In this document: one piece after another, positions 12,863-27,096 of the stretch
Layout: the number at the start of each line of letters is the position of its first letter
How positions within the stretch are numbered: the stretch's first letter is position 1
Assembly (NCBI RefSeq): GCF_900114265.1
Contig: NZ_FPKV01000002.1
Coordinates: 310,001 to 374,000 of the forward strand
Reading direction: 5' to 3'
DNA length: 64,000 nucleotides
Source: Flaviramulus basaltis
Lineage (GTDB): Bacteria; Bacteroidota; Bacteroidia; Flavobacteriales; Flavobacteriaceae
The notes under the pieces: model-generated
The model's input: the letters and a program-made list of their open reading frames with translations, nothing else
Told to the model about the DNA's origin: nothing
Databases searched by the model: none
Made by a program: the position numbers and the translations under genes

Positions 12863-15031
12863 ATGATTAATATTCACGAGAAAACATTACAAGATTTAGA
12901 GTTTCAAACGGTTTTACAACAAGTTAGCGAACATTGTGTAACACCTCTAGGAAATGAAAAAGCATTACAAATCTCTCCTCATAAAACTAAGGAAGAACTG
13001 CTAATTTCATTAAAACTAACCAATGAATATCTTTCTTCGTTTTATAATGATAACAGAATCCCAAACCATGGTTTTGATACGATAACTAAAGAATTAAAGT
13101 TACTACGTATCGAAAACACTTACTTAGAAGTTCATGCTTTAAAGAAAATAGTTTCCATATCGCTAACTGTTAATGATATTGTAACGTATTTAAAAAAGTT
13201 TCAAGAATACTATCCTGGTTTAAGTGAATTTGCTTCTCATATAGAAGTTACCAAAATAATTATTGAAAAAATAGACAGTATTGTTGATCGCTTTAGTGAT
13301 ATTAAAGATAATGCCTCTACCCTTTTATTTGAACTTCGTCAATCGATAAACAAAATAAAAGGTAAAATTAATGCGAGTTTTACAACAGCTTTAAATATGT
13401 ATCATAATCTTGAGTATTTGGATGATATTCGAGAATCTGTAGTAGACAACAAGCGTGTTTTAGCTGTAAAAGCAATGTATCGTCGTAAAGTAAAGGGAGC
13501 TATTATGGGTGGCAGCAAAACAGGAAGTATTGTTTATATAGAGCCAGAAACAACACTTCAACACTCTAGAGAATTAAATAATTTAGAATATGAAGAACAT
13601 GAGGAAGTCATTCGTATTTTAAAAGAAGTGACTAATTTTATTCGTCCGTTTTTACCGTTGTTGCATGACTATCAATCTTTTTTGATAGACTTAGATGTTA
13701 TTTCCGCGAAAGCGAAATATGCACGACCTATGAATGCCATTCTTCCAGAGTTTACCGAAGATAGAAGCATGTATTTACGAGATGCTTATCACCCACTGCT
13801 CTATTTAAATAATTTAAACAAGCAAGAAAAAACCTTTCCGCAAACAATAGAATTAAAGCAGAATAGCCGAATTATAGTCATCTCAGGTCCTAATGCTGGA
13901 GGAAAAAGTATCACTTTAAAAACGGTTGGTTTACTCCAAGTTATGCTACAAAGTGGCATATTAATTCCAGTGCATGAGCGTAGTAAAGTATGTTTATTTG
14001 ATAGGATTTTAAGCGATATTGGCGACAATCAATCTATTGAAAACCATTTAAGTACTTACAGCTACCGTTTAAAACAAATGAATTATTTCTTGAAGAAATG
14101 TAATAAAAATACGCTCTTCTTAATTGATGAATTTGGTACAGGAAGTGATCCAGAACTTGGTGGTGCTTTAGCTGAAACCTTTTTAGAAGAGTTTTATCAT
14201 CGTGACGCTTTTGGTATTATTACAACCCACTACTCCAACTTAAAAATATTAGCTAACGAGTTACCATTTATGCTTAACGCTAATATGTTGTTTGATGAAA
14301 AAACTTTAGAACCACTTTTTAAATTGATAATTGGTCAAGCAGGAAGTAGTTTTACCTTTGAGGTTGCACAAAAGAATGGAATCCCTTATAGCTTAATAAA
14401 CCGCGCTAAAAAGAAGATTGAACGCAGTAAAGTAAGATTTGATGCTACCATTGCTAAACTTCAAAAAGAACGCTCTAAATTGGAAAAAACTGGGCAATCT
14501 CTAAAACTCAACGAAAAGAAAAAAATTGAAGAAGCCGATAAACTTGAAGAAATAAATGCTAAAATTCAAAAGAAATTAGAAAACTATCAAGAATTATATG
14601 ATAGCAACCAACGTTTAATTTACTTAGGACAAAAAGTAAATGATATTGCCGAAAAGTATTTTGAAAACAAGCAAAAGCGTGAATTAATGGACGAACTTTT
14701 TAAAGTAGTTCAAATTGAGAATTCAAAACGCAAAAAAGTTTCAGTAAAACAGAAAAAAGCAATTAAAGCTAAAGAAACTCAAGTAAAACAAGAAGCCGAG
14801 AAGAAAGTAGAAGTTATTCGTGAGAAGAAAAAAGTAGCTAAACAAAAAGCTATTGAAACCCCAAAACCAAAAGCCATTTTAAAAGTTGGTGACCGCGTAA
14901 GAATGGAAGATGGTCGTGCTATAGGTAGTATAGATAAAATAGAAAAAAACAAAGCTGTTGTTAACTACGGGATATTTACGACTAATGTAAGTATGGATCA
15001 ATTAGAATTGGTTGAAGCTATTAAAAAATAA
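12863..15031 (+). CDS. MutS2 family protein without a Smr nuclease domain
   Basis: 722 aa. The MutS2 core (lever/clamp region, then ATPase) is clear: Walker A GPNAGGKSIT near residue 342-351, Walker B LFLIDEFGTGSDPE near 416-429 and TTHYSN after it. A long coiled coil rich in Lys and Glu follows (about 520-660). The C-terminus is a small KOW/Tudor-like beta segment (LKVGDRVRMEDGRAIGSI). The Smr endonuclease domain, found at the C-terminus of Bacillus-type MutS2 (about 785 aa), is missing. MutS2 is linked to suppression of recombination or to rescue of collided ribosomes; without Smr the cutting activity should be absent or supplied by another protein. Confidence 0.92.
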   Translation: MINIHEKTLQDLEFQTVLQQVSEHCVTPLGNEKALQISPHKTKEELLISLKLTNEYLSSFYNDNRIPNHGFDTITKELKLLRIENTYLEVHALKKIVSISLTVNDIVTYLKKFQEYYPGLSEFASHIEVTKIIIEKIDSIVDRFSDIKDNASTLLFELRQSINKIKGKINASFTTALNMYHNLEYLDDIRESVVDNKRVLAVKAMYRRKVKGAIMGGSKTGSIVYIEPETTLQHSRELNNLEYEEHEEVIRILKEVTNFIRPFLPLLHDYQSFLIDLDVISAKAKYARPMNAILPEFTEDRSMYLRDAYHPLLYLNNLNKQEKTFPQTIELKQNSRIIVISGPNAGGKSITLKTVGLLQVMLQSGILIPVHERSKVCLFDRILSDIGDNQSIENHLSTYSYRLKQMNYFLKKCNKNTLFLIDEFGTGSDPELGGALAETFLEEFYHRDAFGIITTHYSNLKILANELPFMLNANMLFDEKTLEPLFKLIIGQAGSSFTFEVAQKNGIPYSLINRAKKKIERSKVRFDATIAKLQKERSKLEKTGQSLKLNEKKKIEEADKLEEINAKIQKKLENYQELYDSNQRLIYLGQKVNDIAEKYFENKQKRELMDELFKVVQIENSKRKKVSVKQKKAIKAKETQVKQEAEKKVEVIREKKKVAKQKAIETPKPKAILKVGDRVRMEDGRAIGSIDKIEKNKAVVNYGIFTTNVSMDQLELVEAIKK

Positions 15032-15051
15032 CGGTAAGTAGGTTCGTTTTT

Positions 15052-15086
15052 AAAGACTATACAAATCTTATCTTTGTATAGTCTTT
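15052..15086 (+). terminator. Perfect 14-bp hairpin between mutS2 and the DCC gene, overlapping a promoter box
   Basis: Arms AAAGACTATACAAA (15052-15065) and TTTGTATAGTCTTT (15073-15086) pair perfectly around a 7-nt loop TCTTATC. There is no T-run beyond the stem except the T residues within it, so termination is only possible. TATCTTTG at 15069-15076, a -7 box match, straddles the loop and right arm, so the element may act as promoter or as an attenuating 5' structure for the next gene. Confidence 0.5.
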
Positions 15087-15099
15087 GCGAGAAATTATT

Positions 15100-15516
15100 A
15101 TGAAATATATCCCTAAACATAAAAAACTCATCTTGTTTGACGGTGTTTGCAATTTATGCAATACCTCAGTGCAATATGTTATAAAGCACGACAAGAAGGA
15201 CATATTTATGTTTACCGCTTTACAAAGCACAGTTGGTAAACAAATTATTGAAGAATTTAAAATTGACACTAAAAAAACAGACTCTATTTTACTTTACACG
15301 CCAGAAAAAGGGTTAGAATACAAATCTAAAGCAGCTTTAAAAATTGCTTACTACTTAGGTTTTCCTTATAGTTTAATGAGTGTGTTTTTTATTGTTCCGC
15401 CTTTTATTCGCAATTGGGTTTACGATTATATTGCAAAAAACAGATATAAATGGTACGGTAAAAAAGATGCTTGTATGATTCCTACTCCAGAGTTAAAAAG
15501 TAAATTTTTAGAATAA
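15100..15516 (+). CDS. DCC-family (DUF393) thiol-disulfide oxidoreductase-like protein
   Basis: About 138 aa from the ATG at 15100. An in-frame TTG at 15085 falls inside a hairpin, so the ATG is preferred. The family signature FDGVCNLCNTSVQY is at the N-terminus (CxxC in a thioredoxin-like setting), and the FYLG-type segment KIAYYLGFPY is conserved. The C-terminus WYGKKDACMIPTPE is typical of flavobacterial members. The biochemical role is not established; a redox role is inferred from the CxxC. It has its own promoter-like box inside the preceding hairpin. Confidence 0.88.
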   Translation: MKYIPKHKKLILFDGVCNLCNTSVQYVIKHDKKDIFMFTALQSTVGKQIIEEFKIDTKKTDSILLYTPEKGLEYKSKAALKIAYYLGFPYSLMSVFFIVPPFIRNWVYDYIAKNRYKWYGKKDACMIPTPELKSKFLE

Positions 15517-19141: not shown

Positions 19142-20302
19142 CTACTTCAAACTCCTCAAAATAAAATCTACTTTTTTATTCGTGTTTTTATTTTCAGAAT
19201 AAGAATCTGTGACATGTTTTGCCGGAACTGCTAATCCTTTTTTAATTAAAGACTCAATTTCATGAGCGTATTCCAATGATACTTTTCCTGTAAGTAGTAA
19301 ACTTAAATCTTTACCAGAATGGTAGTAATCGTAAATCTTTTTAAGTCCCGTTAAATACAAATAATCTTTTGTAAAACCGCCACCTCTATGCGCTCTTACC
19401 GTAATATAAAATGCTTCTTCACGCTCTAAATCGTATTGATTATGTAGCATCCTAAATGTTCTAGAAAACGAATAGCCTTTTGCTAAACTATCTACCGCAA
19501 TAACCCGATATGCTAATTCCTTTAAACGTGTAACCGTTAAATTATTACTCATATACTCACTAAAAACAGCTAAACCTTCTTGTGTTTCTTCGTTATTAGG
19601 AAAACCATGAGAGAAAATCTTTAAAGGGTGCAACATACCATTCATGGTTGTTACCATGTGTACACCAATTTCATGATTTGTTAAAACCGCTATTTCGTTA
19701 TCAGAATAGGTATGATGTGAATTTAAAACCAGTGTTTTAATATTATTTAAAACCATAGCAATGGCAGACATTTTATCTGAATGTTTTATACTATAATTAA
19801 AATCGTATTTCTCTGAGAATGTTTCAAAAAACACCTCAGCTTCAGTCGCATTATATTTAGGTTGAAATGCTGGAACATCTTTGTTTTCATCTTCAAAATG
19901 AAGAATAAACTTAGCATTTTCAACATCGTTTTCTGTTGGTGTTCCAAAACAACGTAAACAGTTATAATAAAACTTTTTTCCTTTTCCTATGGTTTCAACA
20001 CATTGAATTAAGCCAGAATATGCATAAATAATATCTTCATAAAAATCTTTAATCTCAGCATCTTCAATAAGTTCTAAAGGTTGAATAAATAATTTTCGAT
20101 GTAGTTTAAACTTATCAAAATTGATGCTTGGATATTTAAAGACAGGATCTGTTAAATATTTAGAAGAAAAAAAACGTGCTTTTTCTTCTTCTATATTTAT
20201 AGGATTCACATAACTAAGCAACTCAATTTGCTTAACTAGCGCATCAATGCTTTTATCTATTTCTAAAAGTGCTTTTGTAGCTACATTATTTTCAATCTTC
20301 AT
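19142..20302 (-). CDS. DUF1704 'QEGLA motif' metallopeptidase (tyrosine carboxypeptidase-like)
   Basis: 386 aa. The zinc site is explicit: HEIGVH at residues 210-215 (an HExxxH motif) and the name-giving QEGLA at 241-245, whose Glu is the likely third ligand. The RAHRGGG motif is further on. The family was annotated as 'flavohemoglobin expression-modulating' on weak grounds. Its eukaryotic relative MATCAP removes the C-terminal Tyr from alpha-tubulin, so a carboxypeptidase acting on C-terminal aromatic residues is a reasonable inference. No signal peptide is seen, so it is probably cytoplasmic. It is the last gene of a four-gene operon, 5 nt after the N-formylglutamate amidohydrolase gene. 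Confidence 0.9.
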   Translation of the reverse strand: MKIENNVATKALLEIDKSIDALVKQIELLSYVNPINIEEEKARFFSSKYLTDPVFKYPSINFDKFKLHRKLFIQPLELIEDAEIKDFYEDIIYAYSGLIQCVETIGKGKKFYYNCLRCFGTPTENDVENAKFILHFEDENKDVPAFQPKYNATEAEVFFETFSEKYDFNYSIKHSDKMSAIAMVLNNIKTLVLNSHHTYSDNEIAVLTNHEIGVHMVTTMNGMLHPLKIFSHGFPNNEETQEGLAVFSEYMSNNLTVTRLKELAYRVIAVDSLAKGYSFSRTFRMLHNQYDLEREEAFYITVRAHRGGGFTKDYLYLTGLKKIYDYYHSGKDLSLLLTGKVSLEYAHEIESLIKKGLAVPAKHVTDSYSENKNTNKKVDFILRSLK

Positions 20303-20307
20303 AAAAT

Positions 20308-21138
20308 CTAACTTTTAAAGGCGCTATATACACTTAAAGCATGTTCTGGGATTCTTTTAACAAGTTCCTTTTCAACAGTACTTACTACTTCTGGGTATAT
20401 AATTTGCTCATATTCATCGCCATATACTTTTGCGATTTCGGTTGCCAAAACTAAAGTATTTTTAAAGTTCTGTGTAATATATTTTAAGAAATATCCATTG
20501 CCTTGAAACGTATCATTTATTAAAGAAGTGGATTTTATATTGTGAGGAAACTCAATTTCGGATAAGCTTTGTCTCCAATTCTCAACAAAATCTCCAAAAC
20601 GAGTGTTATCAATATTACTAGTTCCTAAATTCCAAGTAGGCACTTCCCTATCCCAACGTTTCCAATTGTAGCTATGCATATCGTAAACGGTACAAAATCC
20701 AAATTTAGACTCCAATGCTTCTATTAATGCATATACTACTTTATAAAAATTGATGTGTTTTTGCAGGCTTTTATTTTTCATCGCTTCAGAAAGTGGTGTT
20801 TTCCATAATTTTTTACCCCAAGCGGTTTCAAAAACAGCTTCTTCTGGTACTCGGTTTAAATCATATTCAAAACGAGAATCGCATCCAGCAATAACTATAG
20901 GGTGCGATTTAATCATGTTTTTTGTTTCAGGATCCTCTTCATACCAACGGTCGTATTCTGTATGTATGCAATTATCCCAAAGTTCTTTTCTAAACTGATG
21001 CCCATCATGCACTGCTGCGCAGGCATATGGAACGTAATCATCTATTTTTATGGTAAATGAATAATCTGAAGACACGGCTTCAAAGATTTCGCCTGCTTCA
21101 ATTTTCTTTAAAATTTCAGAAATCGACAAACACTCCAT
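20308..21138 (-). CDS. N-formylglutamate amidohydrolase family protein
   Basis: 276 aa. The FGase fold is recognisable from IAGCDSRFEYDLNR, TVYDMHSYNWKR and the late segment VLATEIAKVYGDE. Classical family members release formate from N-formylglutamate in histidine degradation. No hut genes are near, and the gene is packed between a rhodanese (1-nt gap) and a DUF1704 peptidase (5-nt gap). A different role, hydrolysing an amide formed by the operon's ATP-grasp ligase, is therefore more likely; this is inference from context. Confidence 0.88.
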   Translation of the reverse strand: MECLSISEILKKIEAGEIFEAVSSDYSFTIKIDDYVPYACAAVHDGHQFRKELWDNCIHTEYDRWYEEDPETKNMIKSHPIVIAGCDSRFEYDLNRVPEEAVFETAWGKKLWKTPLSEAMKNKSLQKHINFYKVVYALIEALESKFGFCTVYDMHSYNWKRWDREVPTWNLGTSNIDNTRFGDFVENWRQSLSEIEFPHNIKSTSLINDTFQGNGYFLKYITQNFKNTLVLATEIAKVYGDEYEQIIYPEVVSTVEKELVKRIPEHALSVYSAFKS

Positions 21139-21139
21139 T

Positions 21140-22294
21140 TTATTTTAAAATCTTTTTTAAGTGACTATATGCCATTTTCTCCATATTATCCATTCCGCCA
21201 TCTGCAAAAGCCATGAGCTTAATATCTGCAAATAAATCTGCTAAATCATTTCTATAATAATCATGAGTTTTTACAGCTTCTATTATATTTTGAATGCTTT
21301 GGTAATCGTTATCATTTTCAAATTGTTTATGTACGCGTTCAAATACATTTTTATCAACTCTGGATAAAATATATTCTTTTTCATTTTGAGTTTCATTTAA
21401 ATCTGAATGTGCTACAAATAACAGAATATAAGCTAGTAATTCATCTTTTGTCCATGTGCTTGGAGTTTCCATATTTGAGGTTACTAAACTTCCCCATTCT
21501 GTCCAAGAACCATCATACACCGAAATATTTTTATATCCTGAAATTTCTGCGCCCAAAGCCAAAACACAAGCCGTAATACCCGAACCACATGAAAATATAA
21601 CATCATCATTTTTATCGGCAACCATGTAAAAAGCCTTTTCTAAGTCTACTTTTGGTTTTAAAATACCATTATCTAATAAATCTTCAAAAGGCAAATTAAC
21701 GGAGTTTGGAATGGTTCCCATACGTAAACCTGCTCTTGGTTCTGGTTCTAAACTTTTGAATCTGTTTGCTGAGCGTGCATCAACAATTGTATGTGTTTTA
21801 TTTTTTGAAGCTACGACTATATCATTAAAAAACTTCATGTAATCTGGTTGAAGTTTTGCTGTAAAATCACCAACTTCTCCATTATAAAGTTTCATAGGTT
21901 CTGTTTGGTAATCTGCTTTTAACCAAGCGGGGAATCCGCCATTTAAAACCGCTACGTTATTATATCCAAAAGATTTAAACAACCACCAAACTCTAGCACT
22001 TGAGTAAATGCCTTTATCGTCTGAGATTACGATAGTGCTATTTTTATTTATTCCTAAATTTCTAGCTTCTTTTTGAAATTGTTCAATAGAAGGAAACGCA
22101 CTAGGAAACGGATTTGATGCATCGCTAAACTTATTTTTTATATCGAAAAGTCTTGTATTTGGAATTTGTTTTTGTGAAGCATCAAAAACTTTATTTATGG
22201 TTCCATCTAAAACAACAAGGTTTTCAGTACTCAAATGTTCATGAAGCCATTCTACTGAAACTATAGGTTCTTTTAAAGAAATATCAGAATTCAT
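21140..22294 (-). CDS. Sulfurtransferase (two rhodanese domains) with C-terminal helical extension
   Basis: 384 aa. Two tandem rhodanese domains occupy about residues 10-130 and 150-275. The second carries the active-site loop CGSGITA with catalytic Cys236; the first lacks a Cys in the matching place, as in thiosulfate/3-mercaptopyruvate sulfurtransferases. Residues 281-384 form an additional all-helical acidic domain (DELLAYILLFVAHSD, MAFADGGMDNMEK) reminiscent of TerB-like folds and not found in standard SseA or TST proteins. It sits in the middle of the ATP-grasp/DUF1704 operon, 1 nt before the amidohydrolase, so a role in sulfur transfer to that pathway is inferred. Confidence 0.88.
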   Translation of the reverse strand: MNSDISLKEPIVSVEWLHEHLSTENLVVLDGTINKVFDASQKQIPNTRLFDIKNKFSDASNPFPSAFPSIEQFQKEARNLGINKNSTIVISDDKGIYSSARVWWLFKSFGYNNVAVLNGGFPAWLKADYQTEPMKLYNGEVGDFTAKLQPDYMKFFNDIVVASKNKTHTIVDARSANRFKSLEPEPRAGLRMGTIPNSVNLPFEDLLDNGILKPKVDLEKAFYMVADKNDDVIFSCGSGITACVLALGAEISGYKNISVYDGSWTEWGSLVTSNMETPSTWTKDELLAYILLFVAHSDLNETQNEKEYILSRVDKNVFERVHKQFENDNDYQSIQNIIEAVKTHDYYRNDLADLFADIKLMAFADGGMDNMEKMAYSHLKKILK

Positions 22295-22340
22295 TAAAAA
22301 AGGTTTTACTGATTAATACAACTGAAAACTGGAGACTTAT

Positions 22341-23378
22341 TTAAGCGTCTTGCACTGTTTTTCTAAGTCTTGTACGTCTATCAAAAGCTTGAAGTTTATC
22401 GAGAACTTTCATTTCTAAGAAGTCGATTACTTTTTCTTCAATTTTAACTTTAAGCTTATACACTTTATTGATGTAAGTGATTCCGCCTGGAGACATAACA
22501 TTAACCTCAACTAACTTGCCACCAATAACATCAATACCAACAAAATAAAGTCCGTCGTTTACTAATTTAGGACCAATTTGCTTACACAATGCTTTTTCAT
22601 CTTTGGTTAAGGTGTGCCTTTGTACACTTCCACCAGCAGATACATTAGAACGGTGATCATCATTTCCTGGCACACGTTTCATAGCACCTACAGCTTCGCC
22701 ATTTAGCATTAAAATACGCACATCTCCTTGATCTGCTCCCTCAATATAATCTTGAAGAATAACATAATTTGAAGAACCATCTCCACTTGTTATATAAAAA
22801 TCGAGCAAAGAATTAATATTACTCATCGCCGATTTTTCAATTAAAATAACACCAGAACCACCAAAACCATTAAGTGGTTTCAATATCATTTTATCTGCTT
22901 TAGATTCTTTAATCTGATTGATTAAATAGTTTTTACTTTTTGATACGTGAGTTGCTGGAATAATATTACTATGTGCATCTCCAAAAGCTGCAGTATATAA
23001 TTTATTGTTTGCTTCTCGCATACCTTCTAAAGAATTCATGATAAAAACATCGTCTTTTACAGAATCTAAAAAGTTTAGCATAATAGGATCTAATGGAGGG
23101 TTTGCTCTAAAGAAAATCACATCAAAACCAGCAAGCGGTAACATTTCTTCTCGTAATTTAGCCTTACTATAAAACGACTTTAAAGATGCAGGCGTTTTTT
23201 CCATTCTACCTATAACCGTACAATTAGCAGTAGTTACACTATTTCTAATGGTTAAATTTGCAGGTGTACACATCGCAACTCCATGTCCTCTTTTAACACA
23301 TTCTTTAATTAAGGCTAAAGTAGTATCGTTTTCAGGATCTATATCCTTCCAAGGATACATTATAAAACAAACGTTCAT
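22341..23378 (-). CDS. ATP-grasp ligase, glutathione synthetase-like
   Basis: 345 aa. The ATP-grasp core is similar to GshB: the Lys-and-Gly-rich loop LKPLNGFGGSGVI (about 171-183), the metal/phosphate-binding ending EVNVMSPGGITYIN (about 305-318), and an N-terminal pre-ATP-grasp domain beginning MNVCFIMYPW. No GshA homologue is in the window, and Flavobacteriaceae generally use bacillithiol-type thiols (bshA is at 38 kb), so a true glutathione synthetase is doubtful. It more likely joins a carboxylate to an amine in an unknown product. First gene of the operon, 46 nt before the rhodanese gene. Confidence 0.88.
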   Translation of the reverse strand: MNVCFIMYPWKDIDPENDTTLALIKECVKRGHGVAMCTPANLTIRNSVTTANCTVIGRMEKTPASLKSFYSKAKLREEMLPLAGFDVIFFRANPPLDPIMLNFLDSVKDDVFIMNSLEGMREANNKLYTAAFGDAHSNIIPATHVSKSKNYLINQIKESKADKMILKPLNGFGGSGVILIEKSAMSNINSLLDFYITSGDGSSNYVILQDYIEGADQGDVRILMLNGEAVGAMKRVPGNDDHRSNVSAGGSVQRHTLTKDEKALCKQIGPKLVNDGLYFVGIDVIGGKLVEVNVMSPGGITYINKVYKLKVKIEEKVIDFLEMKVLDKLQAFDRRTRLRKTVQDA

Positions 23379-23522: not shown

Positions 23523-24848
23523 TTATTTCACTTCATCGTAATTATCATCCCACTCTTTTGGCTTTGGATCGTGTAATTTACCTAATGATTTTGCTACTAG
23601 CATAGACACTGTGGCATCTCCAGTAACATTTACAACGGTTCTACACATATCTAAAGGTCTATCTACTGCAAAAATAAGTGCTAACCCAATTGGTAGTAAT
23701 TCTGCTGGAAACCCAATAGATTCTAATACAATAACCAACATTACCATACCTGCACTTGGTACTGCTGCACTACCAATAGATGCAAGTAACGCTGTAGCGA
23801 TAATAACAAGTTGATTGGTAAATGTTAATCCTTCTGGCCAAATAACCTGCATGATAAATACGGCGGCTATACCTTGGTATAAACTTGTTCCATCCATATT
23901 TACAGTAGCACCAACTGGTAACACAAAACCAGAAACTTCTTTATCTACACCTAAATGTTCCTCAACACGTTCCATAGTTACTGGTAATGTTGCTGCACTA
24001 CTACTTGTTGAAAAAGCTAAAAGTTGTGCAGGGCTTATTTGTTGTAAAAACCACATTGGTGATTTTTTTGCGTAAACTTTAATTAATAACATATAAAAAC
24101 CAATCATTATAATAAGTCCACCAACAACACAAAGCGCATACCATAGTAGTTTTACAAGAATATCTGGATCATCAAAAGCTATAATTACGTTTGCTAATAA
24201 TGCAAATACGGCGTAAGGAGCAAAAAGCATAATTAAATCTACCATTTTCATTACCACTTCATTTAACGAATCGAAGAAATCAATTAATGGTTTTGCTTTC
24301 TTTTCTCCAATTAGTAATAAACAAATACCAACAAATAATGCAAAAAAGATAACTTGAAGCATAGAAGCTTCTACAAAAGACTCAAAAATATTACTCGGAA
24401 AAATATCTACTAAAGCTTGTAATGGGCCTGCATCTTTTTGAGCAGATGCTTTCACTAATTTATCGGTTACGCCTGCATCATTTTCATATTTTAATTTAAT
24501 TTTCTCAATAGTATCCTGTGGCATTCCATTACCTGGTTTAATTGTATTTACAATGGTTAAACCAATAATAATGGCAACCAAAGTAGTGGCCACATAAATA
24601 CCTATGGTACGTAAACCCATGGATTTAATTTTAGAAATATCTTTTAAATCTGATATTCCTTTTATTAAAGAGGCTAGAATTAACGGTACGGCAATAAGTT
24701 TAAGAAGATTAATAAAAATGGTTCCAAAGGGTGCAATCCAATCGGATACAAATCCTTTTCCGCCGTCAACGGTATTCATAATAAAACCAAAAATGATTCC
24801 AAGAACCATTCCTATAATAATCTTCCAGTGTAATGCTAGTTTCTTCAT
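23523..24848 (-). CDS. Dicarboxylate/amino acid:cation symporter (DAACS/GltP family)
   Basis: 441 aa, polytopic. The family motifs are visible: FINLLKLIAVPLILASLIKGI, the serine-rich re-entrant loop AFSTSSSAATLPVT, the NMDGT motif (TVNMDGTSLYQG) and the DRPLDMCRTVVNVTGDA substrate-binding helix. It takes up glutamate, aspartate or C4-dicarboxylates with Na+ or H+. An unusual charged loop of about 35 residues follows TM3 (GNGMPQDTIEKIKLKYENDAG). It is separate from the operon downstream, with a gap of about 145 nt. Confidence 0.95.
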   Translation of the reverse strand: MKKLALHWKIIIGMVLGIIFGFIMNTVDGGKGFVSDWIAPFGTIFINLLKLIAVPLILASLIKGISDLKDISKIKSMGLRTIGIYVATTLVAIIIGLTIVNTIKPGNGMPQDTIEKIKLKYENDAGVTDKLVKASAQKDAGPLQALVDIFPSNIFESFVEASMLQVIFFALFVGICLLLIGEKKAKPLIDFFDSLNEVVMKMVDLIMLFAPYAVFALLANVIIAFDDPDILVKLLWYALCVVGGLIIMIGFYMLLIKVYAKKSPMWFLQQISPAQLLAFSTSSSAATLPVTMERVEEHLGVDKEVSGFVLPVGATVNMDGTSLYQGIAAVFIMQVIWPEGLTFTNQLVIIATALLASIGSAAVPSAGMVMLVIVLESIGFPAELLPIGLALIFAVDRPLDMCRTVVNVTGDATVSMLVAKSLGKLHDPKPKEWDDNYDEVK

Positions 24849-24914
24849 GTGCTATTTATCTATCTAAGTGGAGAACAATATAAAAATTTTTATGTGTTCT
24901 CGTAAGTATTATTG

Positions 24915-25853
24915 CTATTTTGTAGGTATTACTTTTTGTATGGTTCCATCTTCGTTATAATACAACTTATCAAAACAAATAGATCTTCGGAACGGATGCG
25001 GACTTCCTTTGTGCCCCCAACCAAACTTCTCCTCTACTTCTGGATGGTTTTTATAATACAAATCGGAATTATGGTAAAACATATACCATTCTCCTTTGTA
25101 CTCAACTATAGAATGATGGTTTGTTCCACTATTCATTTTTTCTAAAATAACACCTTTATATTCAAATGGTCCTAAAGGATTATCGCTTGTACAATATTTA
25201 ATCTCTCCGCTTTCTCCAACATAAGACAGGTAGTAAACACCTTTGTATTTATGCATCCAAACGGCTTCAAAAAAGTCGTCTGTTCCCTCAAGTAAATATA
25301 CTTTACCATCATAAGATGTCATGTCTTCATTAAGTTTTATAGCATTAACTACCAATTGCCCCATATAAAGGTATGCTTGTCCGTCGTCATCAATAAAAGC
25401 AGCTGGGTCAATGAAATCTCGGTTACAAACAACACCTTCTGTATTAATATCAATTAAAGGTTTATTTAAAGGATCTTTAAAATAGCCAGTTGGAGAATCG
25501 CTTATTGCCACGCCTATTTTACTTGCCTCAACAGGATAATAGAAATAGTATTTCCCATTACGTTTAATACAGTCAGGAGCCCAAGCTCTTGTTGATGCCC
25601 ATCTTAAACTATCTAAAGAAAAAGCAACACCATGGTCTGTCCAATCTTTCATGTTTGTGGTAGAAAATACGTGCCAGTCTTTCATCGTGAATTTAACTGC
25701 ATCGTCTTCATCATGTGATGGATATACATACAACGTATCGTTAAATACTCTTGCAGAAGGATCTGCAGTGTACATATGTTGTACAAATGGATTTTGTGCT
25801 AAACAGATTATTGAGAATAGTAATAGAATAAATGTGAGTTGAATTTTAGTCAT
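24915..25853 (-). CDS. Glycoside hydrolase family 43 protein, exported
   Basis: 312 aa. A signal peptide (LTFILLLFSIICLAQ) precedes a five-bladed beta-propeller. The three GH43 acidic residues can be placed: the catalytic base Asp in TADPSARVF, the pKa-modulating Asp in DFIDPAAFID, and the acid Glu in FFEAVWMHKYKG. GH43 enzymes attack arabinose or xylose side chains. It carries only the catalytic domain, and there is no SusC/SusD pair or other hydrolase beside it, so it is not part of a visible polysaccharide locus. Confidence 0.92.
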   Translation of the reverse strand: MTKIQLTFILLLFSIICLAQNPFVQHMYTADPSARVFNDTLYVYPSHDEDDAVKFTMKDWHVFSTTNMKDWTDHGVAFSLDSLRWASTRAWAPDCIKRNGKYYFYYPVEASKIGVAISDSPTGYFKDPLNKPLIDINTEGVVCNRDFIDPAAFIDDDGQAYLYMGQLVVNAIKLNEDMTSYDGKVYLLEGTDDFFEAVWMHKYKGVYYLSYVGESGEIKYCTSDNPLGPFEYKGVILEKMNSGTNHHSIVEYKGEWYMFYHNSDLYYKNHPEVEEKFGWGHKGSPHPFRRSICFDKLYYNEDGTIQKVIPTK

Positions 25854-26037
25854 ACTTATTTATTGTTGAAATTCTTTTTTAAGAAGATAACAAGATAAGT
25901 GTTTTTCATCACCCATTAAAGTGGCATCTTTTTTAAAACTAACAATTAACAGATTAACTCTCGTCTCCTCCTTTTAATGATATTTTAAAATAGATTTCTA
26001 TCTATTTAGAAATGGTAAAAAAAGCCAGATATAGCTT

Positions 26038-27096
26038 CTAATAAATTTTATTAATTAGATAAAAATCCGCTATTACCAATGCTGCCATTGCCTCAACTAT
26101 AGGTACTGCACGTGGAACCACACAAGGATCGTGACGCCCTTTTCCATGCATCTGAACAACCTTACCTTCTTTATCTATAGTTTCGTATTCTTGAATAAGC
26201 GTTGCTACAGGTTTAAAAGCGACATTAAAATAAATATCCATACCGTTGCTTATACCGCCTTGAATACCTCCAGAATAGTTGGTTTTTGTAGAACCATCAG
26301 TATTAAAAGCATCATTATGGTCACTACCATACATCGTACTTCCATGAAAACCACTACCATATTCAAAACCTTTTACTGCATTTATTGAAAGCATGGCTTT
26401 ACCCAACTCGGCATGTAATTTATCGAATACAGGCTCGCCTAAACCAGCAGGAACATTTTTAATCACACAGCTTACAATACCACCAACAGTATCGCCTTTA
26501 CCACGAACTTCTTTAATGTAAGTTTCCATTTTAGAAGCGATTTCTTGATCTGGACAACGTACAATATTAGATTCTACTTTTGTAAGGTCTAATTTGTTAT
26601 ATGGTTTGTCTAATTTCATGTTACCTACACCAGAAACGTAAGCAATTATTTCAACACCACTTAACATTTGTTTTGCTACAGCACCTGCAACAACACGACA
26701 TGCTGTTTCTCGTGCCGAACTTCGCCCGCCACCTCTATAATCTCTAAAGCCATACTTTACATCGTAAGTATAATCGGCATGACTTGGTCTATAACTATCT
26801 TTTATATGTGTGTAATCGTGAGATTTTTGATTGGTGTTTTCAATAACAAACCCAATTGGTGTTCCGGTTGTTTTACCTTCAAAAATACCTGAATGAAATT
26901 TTACGGTGTCTGGTTCTTTACGTTGGGTAACAATAGCAGATTGACCAGGTTTACGTCTATCAAGTTCTTCTTGTATAGCTTCTAAATCTAACTCAATCCC
27001 CGGTGGGCATCCATCAATAACACCTCCTAAAGCAGGTCCGTGAGATTCTCCATAAGTTGTTAGATTAAATAGTTTTCCAAAGGAATTTCCAGCCAT
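26038..27096 (-). CDS. aroC: Chorismate synthase
   Basis: 352 aa, the standard length. All three chorismate synthase signatures are present: [19 protein letters not shown], the [13 protein letters not shown] block and the [10 protein letters not shown] / [14 protein letters not shown] region. It converts EPSP to chorismate using reduced FMN, the last step of the shikimate pathway. Monocistronic by its context, with a 364-bp upstream gap. Confidence 0.98.

Follow-up and report, generated by a model that had tools for sequence, protein, structure and literature searches.

The 64,000-nucleotide stretch of Flaviramulus basaltis DNA analyzed here (contig NZ_FPKV01000002.1, positions 310,001 to 374,000; hereafter the window) carries on its minus strand four closely spaced genes encoding a GshB-like ATP-grasp ligase, a rhodanese, a zinc amidohydrolase of the N-formylglutamate amidohydrolase (FGase) family, and a homologue of the MATCAP carboxypeptidases (DUF1704). 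The four-gene grouping is a real recurrent set with strong linkage across phyla, and its product is probably an acidic, peptide-like compound that the operon both builds and shortens. The preferred reading, given a probability of about 45%, is a ligation-and-trimming cycle in the cytoplasm that handles an acidic residue (Glu- or Asp-like). The genes, in the order ligase, rhodanese, FGase, MATCAP and separated by intergenic gaps of 46, 1, and 5 nt, are:

22341..23378, minus strand: GshB-like ATP-grasp ligase of the PRK12458 subfamily, 345 residues, predicted to make an amide (peptide) bond (GSH-S_N and GSH-S_ATP domains, NF009110)
21140..22294, minus strand: two-domain rhodanese of the mercaptopyruvate-sulfurtransferase type with an unassigned C-terminal part of about 110 residues, 384 residues (Pfam and NCBIfam matches)
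20308..21138, minus strand: FGase-family zinc amidohydrolase with a carboxypeptidase-like M14-type fold, 276 residues (PF05013 and structure model)
19142..20302, minus strand: MATCAP/DUF1704 gluzincin metallo-carboxypeptidase homologue, 386 residues (PF08014 and structure model)

An earlier inspection of the letters alone (the sequence-only reading) had described these four genes with the same positions and gaps, all of which were confirmed by open reading frames and domain matches, and the zinc motifs HEIGVH and QEGLA that it reported for the DUF1704 protein are both present. Three features had escaped it: a symporter gene upstream of the ligase, the separate character of the rhodanese C-terminus, and, in another part of the genome, a gshA-like gene of the GCS2 family.

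Recurrence of the gene set

The distribution of the genes was surveyed in one draw of 395 Bacteroidota genomes, in named close relatives (the best 80 of 499 loci), and, for the Pseudomonadota, via a plasmid collection only, which yielded 11 MATCAP loci out of 127 matching plasmid records. Among the 395 Bacteroidota genomes, 19 contained MATCAP. The PRK12458 ligase scored above its cut-off in 17 genomes, all of which also contained MATCAP and had the two genes clustered; another MATCAP genome (G002) reached 396.5 bits against the cut-off of 408, the next best genome scoring 214.8 bits, and G186 was the sole one of the 19 without the ligase. The FGase profile matched 16 genomes, 15 of them with MATCAP. 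Fisher tests of these co-occurrences gave p values of 6e-28 and 1e-22, respectively, uncorrected for kinship.

The closest named relatives among the best 80 of 499 loci belong to the Flavobacteriaceae (Algibacter, Hyunsoonleella), with MATCAP matching at 85-89%. FGase and MATCAP were found in all 80 close loci, the ligase in 75, the rhodanese in 70, the symporter in 66, and all five genes in 63. FGase directly precedes MATCAP in 80/80 cases, with a gap of <=60 nt in 75 (based on longest-open-reading-frame starts). Of the five close loci without a ligase, two (L092, L095) stop at a contig end and one (L089) retains a ligase fragment at its left edge. In one further locus (L091:7992-9149) MATCAP is split into two open reading frames on one contig, which represents a broken gene or an assembly error. 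Among 18 further loci from the phylum survey, which include two repeats of named ones (L114 = L068, L115 = L076), MATCAP is accompanied by the ligase in 17 and by FGase in 14.

Two arrangements were distinguished. Form A, that of the window, has the order ligase-(rhodanese)-FGase-MATCAP, and form C the order FGase-long MATCAP-ligase; the latter occurs in other Bacteroidota, in some genomes of the window's family, and in rhizobia. The trio is found in Mesorhizobium, Pararhizobium, Aminobacter, and Shinella, where the record labels read N-formylglutamate amidohydrolase, QEGLA motif protein, and glutathione synthetase or synthase. Two loci (L111, L112) combine both ligase forms in one cluster around one FGase and one long MATCAP, an arrangement that may allow two ligation steps. 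Fusions of FGase with MATCAP occur in two Photobacterium plasmids (L004, L168; 662 and 665 residues), in a member of another Bacteroidota family (L110 of genome G045; 667 residues), and in Vibrio sp. HDW18 (L224). Near one form-C operon (L117:11214-12692) lies a gene for an ATP-grasp protein of the D-Ala-D-Ala-ligase type fused to a SET domain.

The sequence-only reading had named a lack of recurrent linkage as the finding that would speak against it; upon checking, linkage was seen to recur within the Bacteroidota and in rhizobia. A literature search retrieved no paper tying FGase to ATP-grasp enzymes or describing FGase together with glutathione synthetase in an operon, a search combining RimK, polyglutamylation, carboxypeptidase, bacteria, and ATP-grasp found nothing, and DUF1704 by that name gave a single match, on malaria genomes. 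Since a survey of ATP-grasp ligases by Iyer et al. in Mol Biosyst (2009), which reportedly linked these enzymes with peptidases, may already list this neighbourhood, its absence from print is not claimed here.

The ligase and the two hydrolases

The MATCAP protein is a predicted carboxypeptidase homologue with a gluzincin fold, an HExxxH motif, and a second glutamate in QEGLA. It matched PF08014 with 321 bits (cut-off 27) and missed the TIGR02421 QEGLA equivalog (303.8 vs. 338.65 bits). Its structure model, with a predicted local distance difference test score (pLDDT) of 91.4, matched human MATCAP (7z5g_A) with Z 24.8 and a root-mean-square deviation of 3.0 over 292 aligned residues, the next row having Z 16.3, and residues H210, E211, H215, and E242 are invariant across 44 aligned rows (the window and 43 relatives). 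The human enzyme TMCP1 removes terminal Tyr, Ala, Glu, and Gly without distinction, and TMCP2 favours Glu and Ala; human TMCPs also shorten TTLL-added glutamate chains, leaving the branch residue (PMC10499314). Because animal MATCAPs thus also remove glutamate, the analogy with tyrosine removal drawn by the sequence-only reading is weak; the linked hydrolases, FGase and AstE/AspA, point to Glu or Asp, since their families take their names from N-acylated acidic amino acids. The N-terminal part of the long form-C MATCAP may be a decayed FGase domain; hhalign aligned it collinearly with FGase over 206 columns at a probability of 42% (E 2.7e-4), compared with 0.2% (E 0.37) in a control with MATCAP, a result that is suggestive only.

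The FGase of the window was recognized by PF05013 (44 bits, cut-off 28.9) and contains the motifs HDGH, SRFEYDLNR, and DMHSY, which are common to rhizobial FGases and partly to a second FGase of F. basaltis. A PDB sequence search with the single sequence and with the profile gave no match. The structure model (pLDDT 91.3) matched the N-formylglutamate amidohydrolases 2q7s (Z 23.5) and 2odf (Z 20.9), followed by M14 carboxypeptidases at Z ~12 and below, the succinylglutamate desuccinylase AstE (1yw4, Z 10.7), and a phage poly-gamma-glutamate hydrolase (3a9l, Z 10.3).

Three form-C loci contain ligase and MATCAP genes without FGase (L119, L120, L122), and the FGase profile found no match elsewhere in their genomes (G367, G273, G053). 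In all three, a gene with an AstE/AspA catalytic domain adjoins the ligase gene, two being codirectional with it and one facing it. By comparison, one of 103 FGase loci (two repeats kept) has an AstE/AspA-type gene, located >6 kb from MATCAP; the replacement has a p value of 2e-5, or 2e-4 if two divergent-MATCAP loci lacking both FGase and AstE/AspA are counted. AstE and AspA enzymes cut N-acyl Glu or Asp. As an enzyme of this kind stands in for FGase, the work of the third enzyme would be similar, and the FGase/AstE slot probably hydrolyses an N-acyl bond of an acidic residue of that kind.

The ligase gave 182 bits with GSH-S_ATP and 457.7 bits (cut-off 408) with NF009110, the model of the PRK12458 ‘glutathione synthetase’ subfamily. 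Of the GshB equivalogs it reached PRK05246 (280 bits vs. 272) and missed TIGR01380 (233 vs. 299), and its best solved relative is Escherichia coli GshB (1gsa, 9e-37), which has the same domains. In a tree of unknown root that included only three GshB rows, and from which L156 (a wrong open reading frame) was dropped, form-A ligases, form-C ligases, and GshB formed three separate groups with support values of 98/98, 98/97, and 97/98, respectively. At the level of sequence, both ligase forms carry the motifs R-S-N and [ST]PG[GA], which are closer to the R-S-N and STPG of RimK than to the R-[GC]-N and SPT found in the GshB rows.

Genes for the preceding step of glutathione synthesis were searched for in 32 genomes, comprising the 19 MATCAP genomes and 13 of the 80 named ones; all but G186 contain the ligase. 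GCS2 was detected in 9/32 genomes (8/31 with the ligase) and class-I gshA (PF04262) in 0/32, while a third gshA family, PF08886, was not searched. In 23 of the 31 ligase genomes both of the families searched are absent, and ordinary glutathione synthesis by the ligase family is therefore unlikely, although it may still occur in F. basaltis; the PRK12458 ‘glutathione synthetase’ subfamily probably does not make glutathione. The view of the sequence-only reading that the labels ‘glutathione synthetase’ and ‘flavohemoglobin-modulating’ fail to explain the set is supported by these results.

Two further ATP-grasp ligases are located beside FGase- or AstE-type enzymes in the F. basaltis genome. A second operon (G000:C19:1230045; L002:102-3284) encodes a RimK-like ATP-grasp protein with an RLAN domain, the only GCS2 homologue of the genome, and a diverged FGase. 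It shares with the operon of the window the ATP-grasp ligase adjoining FGase, but differs in the presence of GCS2, the divergence of its FGase, and the lack of MATCAP within 3.7 kb. A third set (G000:C27:593979; L124:741-3012) consists of a retropepsin-like PF05618 gene, RimK, and AstE/AspA.

The proposed cycle and its alternatives

According to the cycle proposed here, the ATP-grasp ligase would activate a carboxylate as acyl phosphate and join it by an amide bond to the amino group of an amino acid or a short peptide. MATCAP would act as a carboxypeptidase that trims residues from the C-terminal end of the ligase product, and FGase, or AstE/AspA where FGase is missing, would hydrolyse the N-acyl-acidic-residue bond that MATCAP cannot, for example at a branch or first residue. 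We infer that the ligase, MATCAP, and FGase share one substrate, and likewise the acidic residue, the order of the steps, and the role of the cycle in F. basaltis. The rhodanese and the symporter would be lineage-specific add-ons. Of the earlier proposal, the making and unmaking of an amide-linked residue remains the most economical reading, whereas its sulfur supply and its tyrosine found no support.

The operon would work like the RimK-RimB and tubulin-tail cycles and is a member of neither. TTL and TTLL ligases are ATP-grasp enzymes, and CCP enzymes belong to the M14 family. In the tubulin tail cycle these ligases are opposed by MATCAP-family and CCP enzymes (PMC10499314), and human MATCAP has its fold and HExxxH motif in common with the MATCAP of the operon. 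In contrast to that cycle, the ligase of the operon is GshB-like and not TTL-like, the genes form one operon, the FGase has an M14-like fold without being a CCP, and no tubulin is implied. The RimK-RimB and Pseudomonas rloABC systems likewise pair an ATP-grasp protein with a counteracting hydrolase, RimB and RloA being enzymes that cut polyglutamate (PMC12239564). Here the ligase belongs to another subfamily and the hydrolases are of the zinc type (MATCAP, FGase, or AstE) instead of retropepsins; no retropepsin-like gene is among the operon genes, the one mentioned above adjoining the separate RimK of F. basaltis.

Published data from other bacteria suggest a link between the set and salinity. 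In an RNA sequencing comparison of Photobacterium damselae at 1% and 3% NaCl, low salt raised the expression of ‘GshB’ (A0J47_RS17020) 38.4-fold, of the QEGLA protein with the next listed tag (A0J47_RS17025) 27.5-fold, and of RimK 52.2-fold; polyamine genes also rose, and the authors interpret GshB as glutathione synthetase (PMC10308900). A published listing for Vibrio vulnificus has the COG3930 gene VV2_1203 next to VV2_1204, a ‘glutathione synthetase’ (PMC3091676). For the Vibrionaceae, where the set appears to be turned on at low salinity together with RimK, the cycle would probably tune an acidic conjugate or oligomer to salt or osmolarity. A comparison of brackish with marine genomes includes K05844, which we take to be RimK. 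It found glutamate-modification genes to be commoner in brackish genomes than in their marine relatives (PMC10219603). A Pseudomonas lacking three RloA proteases was sensitive to hypo-osmotic conditions and was rescued by loss of the ATP-grasp protein RloC or of RloB (PMC12239564), a precedent for an opposed ligase and hydrolase.

Under a narrower version, the operon would be a bacterial counterpart of the eukaryotic glutamylation cycle that modifies a protein or an oligomer as salinity changes, with the ligase in the role of TTLL, MATCAP in the chain-shortening role of TMCP, and the M14-like hydrolase in that of CCP5 at the first or branch residue. This version is considered unlikely. The main rival of the ligation-and-trimming cycle, itself on the improbable side, is a cycle of a small soluble peptide, an amine conjugate, or an N-acyl dipeptide comparable to N-acetyl-aspartyl-glutamate or citryl-glutamate, in which FGase/AstE and MATCAP would be degradative and no protein would be modified. 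GshB- and RimK-type ATP-grasp enzymes often make small amides, models of small-amide ATP-grasps match the ligase at lower scores, and the names of the FGase and AstE/AspA families refer to N-acyl acidic amino acids. The polyamine genes induced with ‘GshB’ in P. damselae at low salt (PMC10308900) fit this explanation as well, but the MATCAP relatives of known activity work on protein tails (PMC10499314).

If the set served ordinary glutathione or close thiol metabolism, the ligase would be a glutathione synthetase, the rhodanese would act on the thiol, and the peptidases would recycle it. The NCBIfam label, the domain match, and the PRK05246 score agree with this, as do the GCS2 homologue of F. 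basaltis, the mercaptopyruvate-type rhodanese adjoining the ligase, and the interpretation of the P. damselae authors (PMC10308900). However, the form-A and form-C ligases each group separately from the three GshB rows, the GCS2 of F. basaltis lies in the second operon, next to a different ligase (RimK-like) and a different FGase, and the 23 ligase genomes without GCS2 and PF04262 argue in the same direction, with the reservation that PF08886 was unsearched and uptake of gamma-Glu-Cys is possible; such metabolism is regarded as quite unlikely. A role of FGase in histidine breakdown, from N-formyl-glutamate to glutamate and with incidental grouping, is very improbable. Urocanase was found in 30/32 genomes, so that a hut pathway exists there, but an assignment of the FGase as HutG, the true N-formylglutamate deformylase, was rejected with 11.9 bits in TIGR02017 against 278.75, and a hut linkage was dismissed, the F. 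basaltis urocanase lying on another contig. Moreover, FGase tracks MATCAP and the ligase across phyla and is fused to MATCAP. The absence of hut genes and gshA nearby, noted from the sequence alone, holds for the nine flanking genes scanned and not for the whole 64 kb.

Several observations weigh against the ligation-and-trimming cycle. The ligase scored far under the RimK cut-offs (48 bits vs. 331 for the equivalog, 94.7 vs. 143.4 for rimK_fam), the E. coli GshB models outscored the RimK models on it, and it did not group with RimK in the tree. The preference for an acidic residue is argued from family names and is to that extent presumptive. Of the 1,808 genes that changed in P. damselae, 888 were raised at low salt (PMC10308900), and the ‘GshB’ of this one Photobacterium species would belong to the PRK12458 subfamily judging from the neighbouring QEGLA gene. 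The symporter was rejected as proof of an acidic substrate, as it adjoins aroC in relatives without the operon. Some loci also depart from the set: L098 and L101 have no ligase in the 2.4-3.7 kb before FGase, the fused FGase-MATCAP of Vibrio L224 has no ligase within 6 kb, the ligase of Ensifer L206 has no partners within 6 kb, and G128 has an FGase with no ligase or MATCAP among the surrounding open reading frames. In Pseudoalteromonas (L005:7452-8732) and G186 (L105:7931-9205), a divergent MATCAP gene has neither ligase nor FGase in its locus; the one in Pseudoalteromonas lies near a bet gene cluster.

In the annotated records examined, the bacterial MATCAP proteins carry the name ‘flavohemoglobin expression-modulating QEGLA motif protein’. 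The results place this family in a concrete bacterial context, together with a subfamily named ‘glutathione synthetase’ whose product is probably not glutathione. If the ligation-and-trimming cycle exists, it gives bacteria a salt-linked relative of the tubulin-tail system for ligation and trimming, encoded in a single operon; if the glutamylation version were true, the opposition of ATP-grasp ligases by MATCAP and M14-type hydrolases would not be confined to tubulin tails and would also exist in bacteria.

Rhodanese, symporter, and flanking genes

The rhodanese has two rhodanese stretches and matched E. coli mercaptopyruvate sulfurtransferase (1urh) with 6e-47, remaining under the cut-off of PRK11493 (201 bits vs. 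250). A CG[ST]G[IVL]TA loop, of which CG[ST]G is presumably the active loop, is present in 80/80 rhodanese open reading frames of >250 residues in the collected loci (repeats kept). Besides the 70 close loci, the gene was found in 3/10 further loci of the window's family, and in 0/8 loci of other Bacteroidota families and 0/9 Pseudomonadota loci. As it is missing from the distant loci, sulfur is not part of the core, and the rhodanese appears lineage-specific and not, as previously suggested, the supplier of sulfur to the set. Its last ~110 residues correspond to a separate small open reading frame in Tenacibaculum, Polaribacter, Gaetbulibacter, and others (e.g., L052:6815-7141, L079:6829-7158), and the two of these that were scanned had no Pfam family above cut-off. 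An assignment of this tail as TerB-like was discarded (Pfam TerB at E 0.09 only).

Upstream of the ligase gene, at a distance of 144 nt, lies the symporter gene, and beyond it a GH43 gene and then aroC:

23523..24848, minus strand: SDF-family symporter with an acidic-amino-acid signature, a possible fifth member of the operon whose association is uncertain (PF00375)
24915-25853: GH43 gene between the symporter gene and aroC

The best PDB match of the symporter is an aspartate transporter (9bgz, 4e-90), DMxRTxVNVTGD is conserved, and the substrate-site motif of GltPh, GltTk, and aspartate transporters is present (DMCRTVVNVTGD vs. DMARTTVNVTGD and DMGRTMVNVTGD), its arginine presumably having a role at that site. 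With the GltP model the protein scored 254 bits against 638. In addition to the 66 close loci, the symporter gene occurs in 8/10 further loci of the family and in 0/8 loci of other Bacteroidota families. Searching 25 same-family genomes without MATCAP showed it beside aroC in 5 of the 10 best SDF loci, and its closeness to the operon may therefore be old synteny; aroC lies inside the locus in only 27 of the 66 operon loci with SDF, some of these loci being short. The genes aroC and SDF and the DCC1-like (DUF393)/mutS2 pair, which lie at positions 12863-15516 and 23523-27096 of the window, are adjacent in one locus without the operon (L176). These genes look like an old island of the family, so that the operon may have entered between SDF and the DUF393/mutS2 pair.

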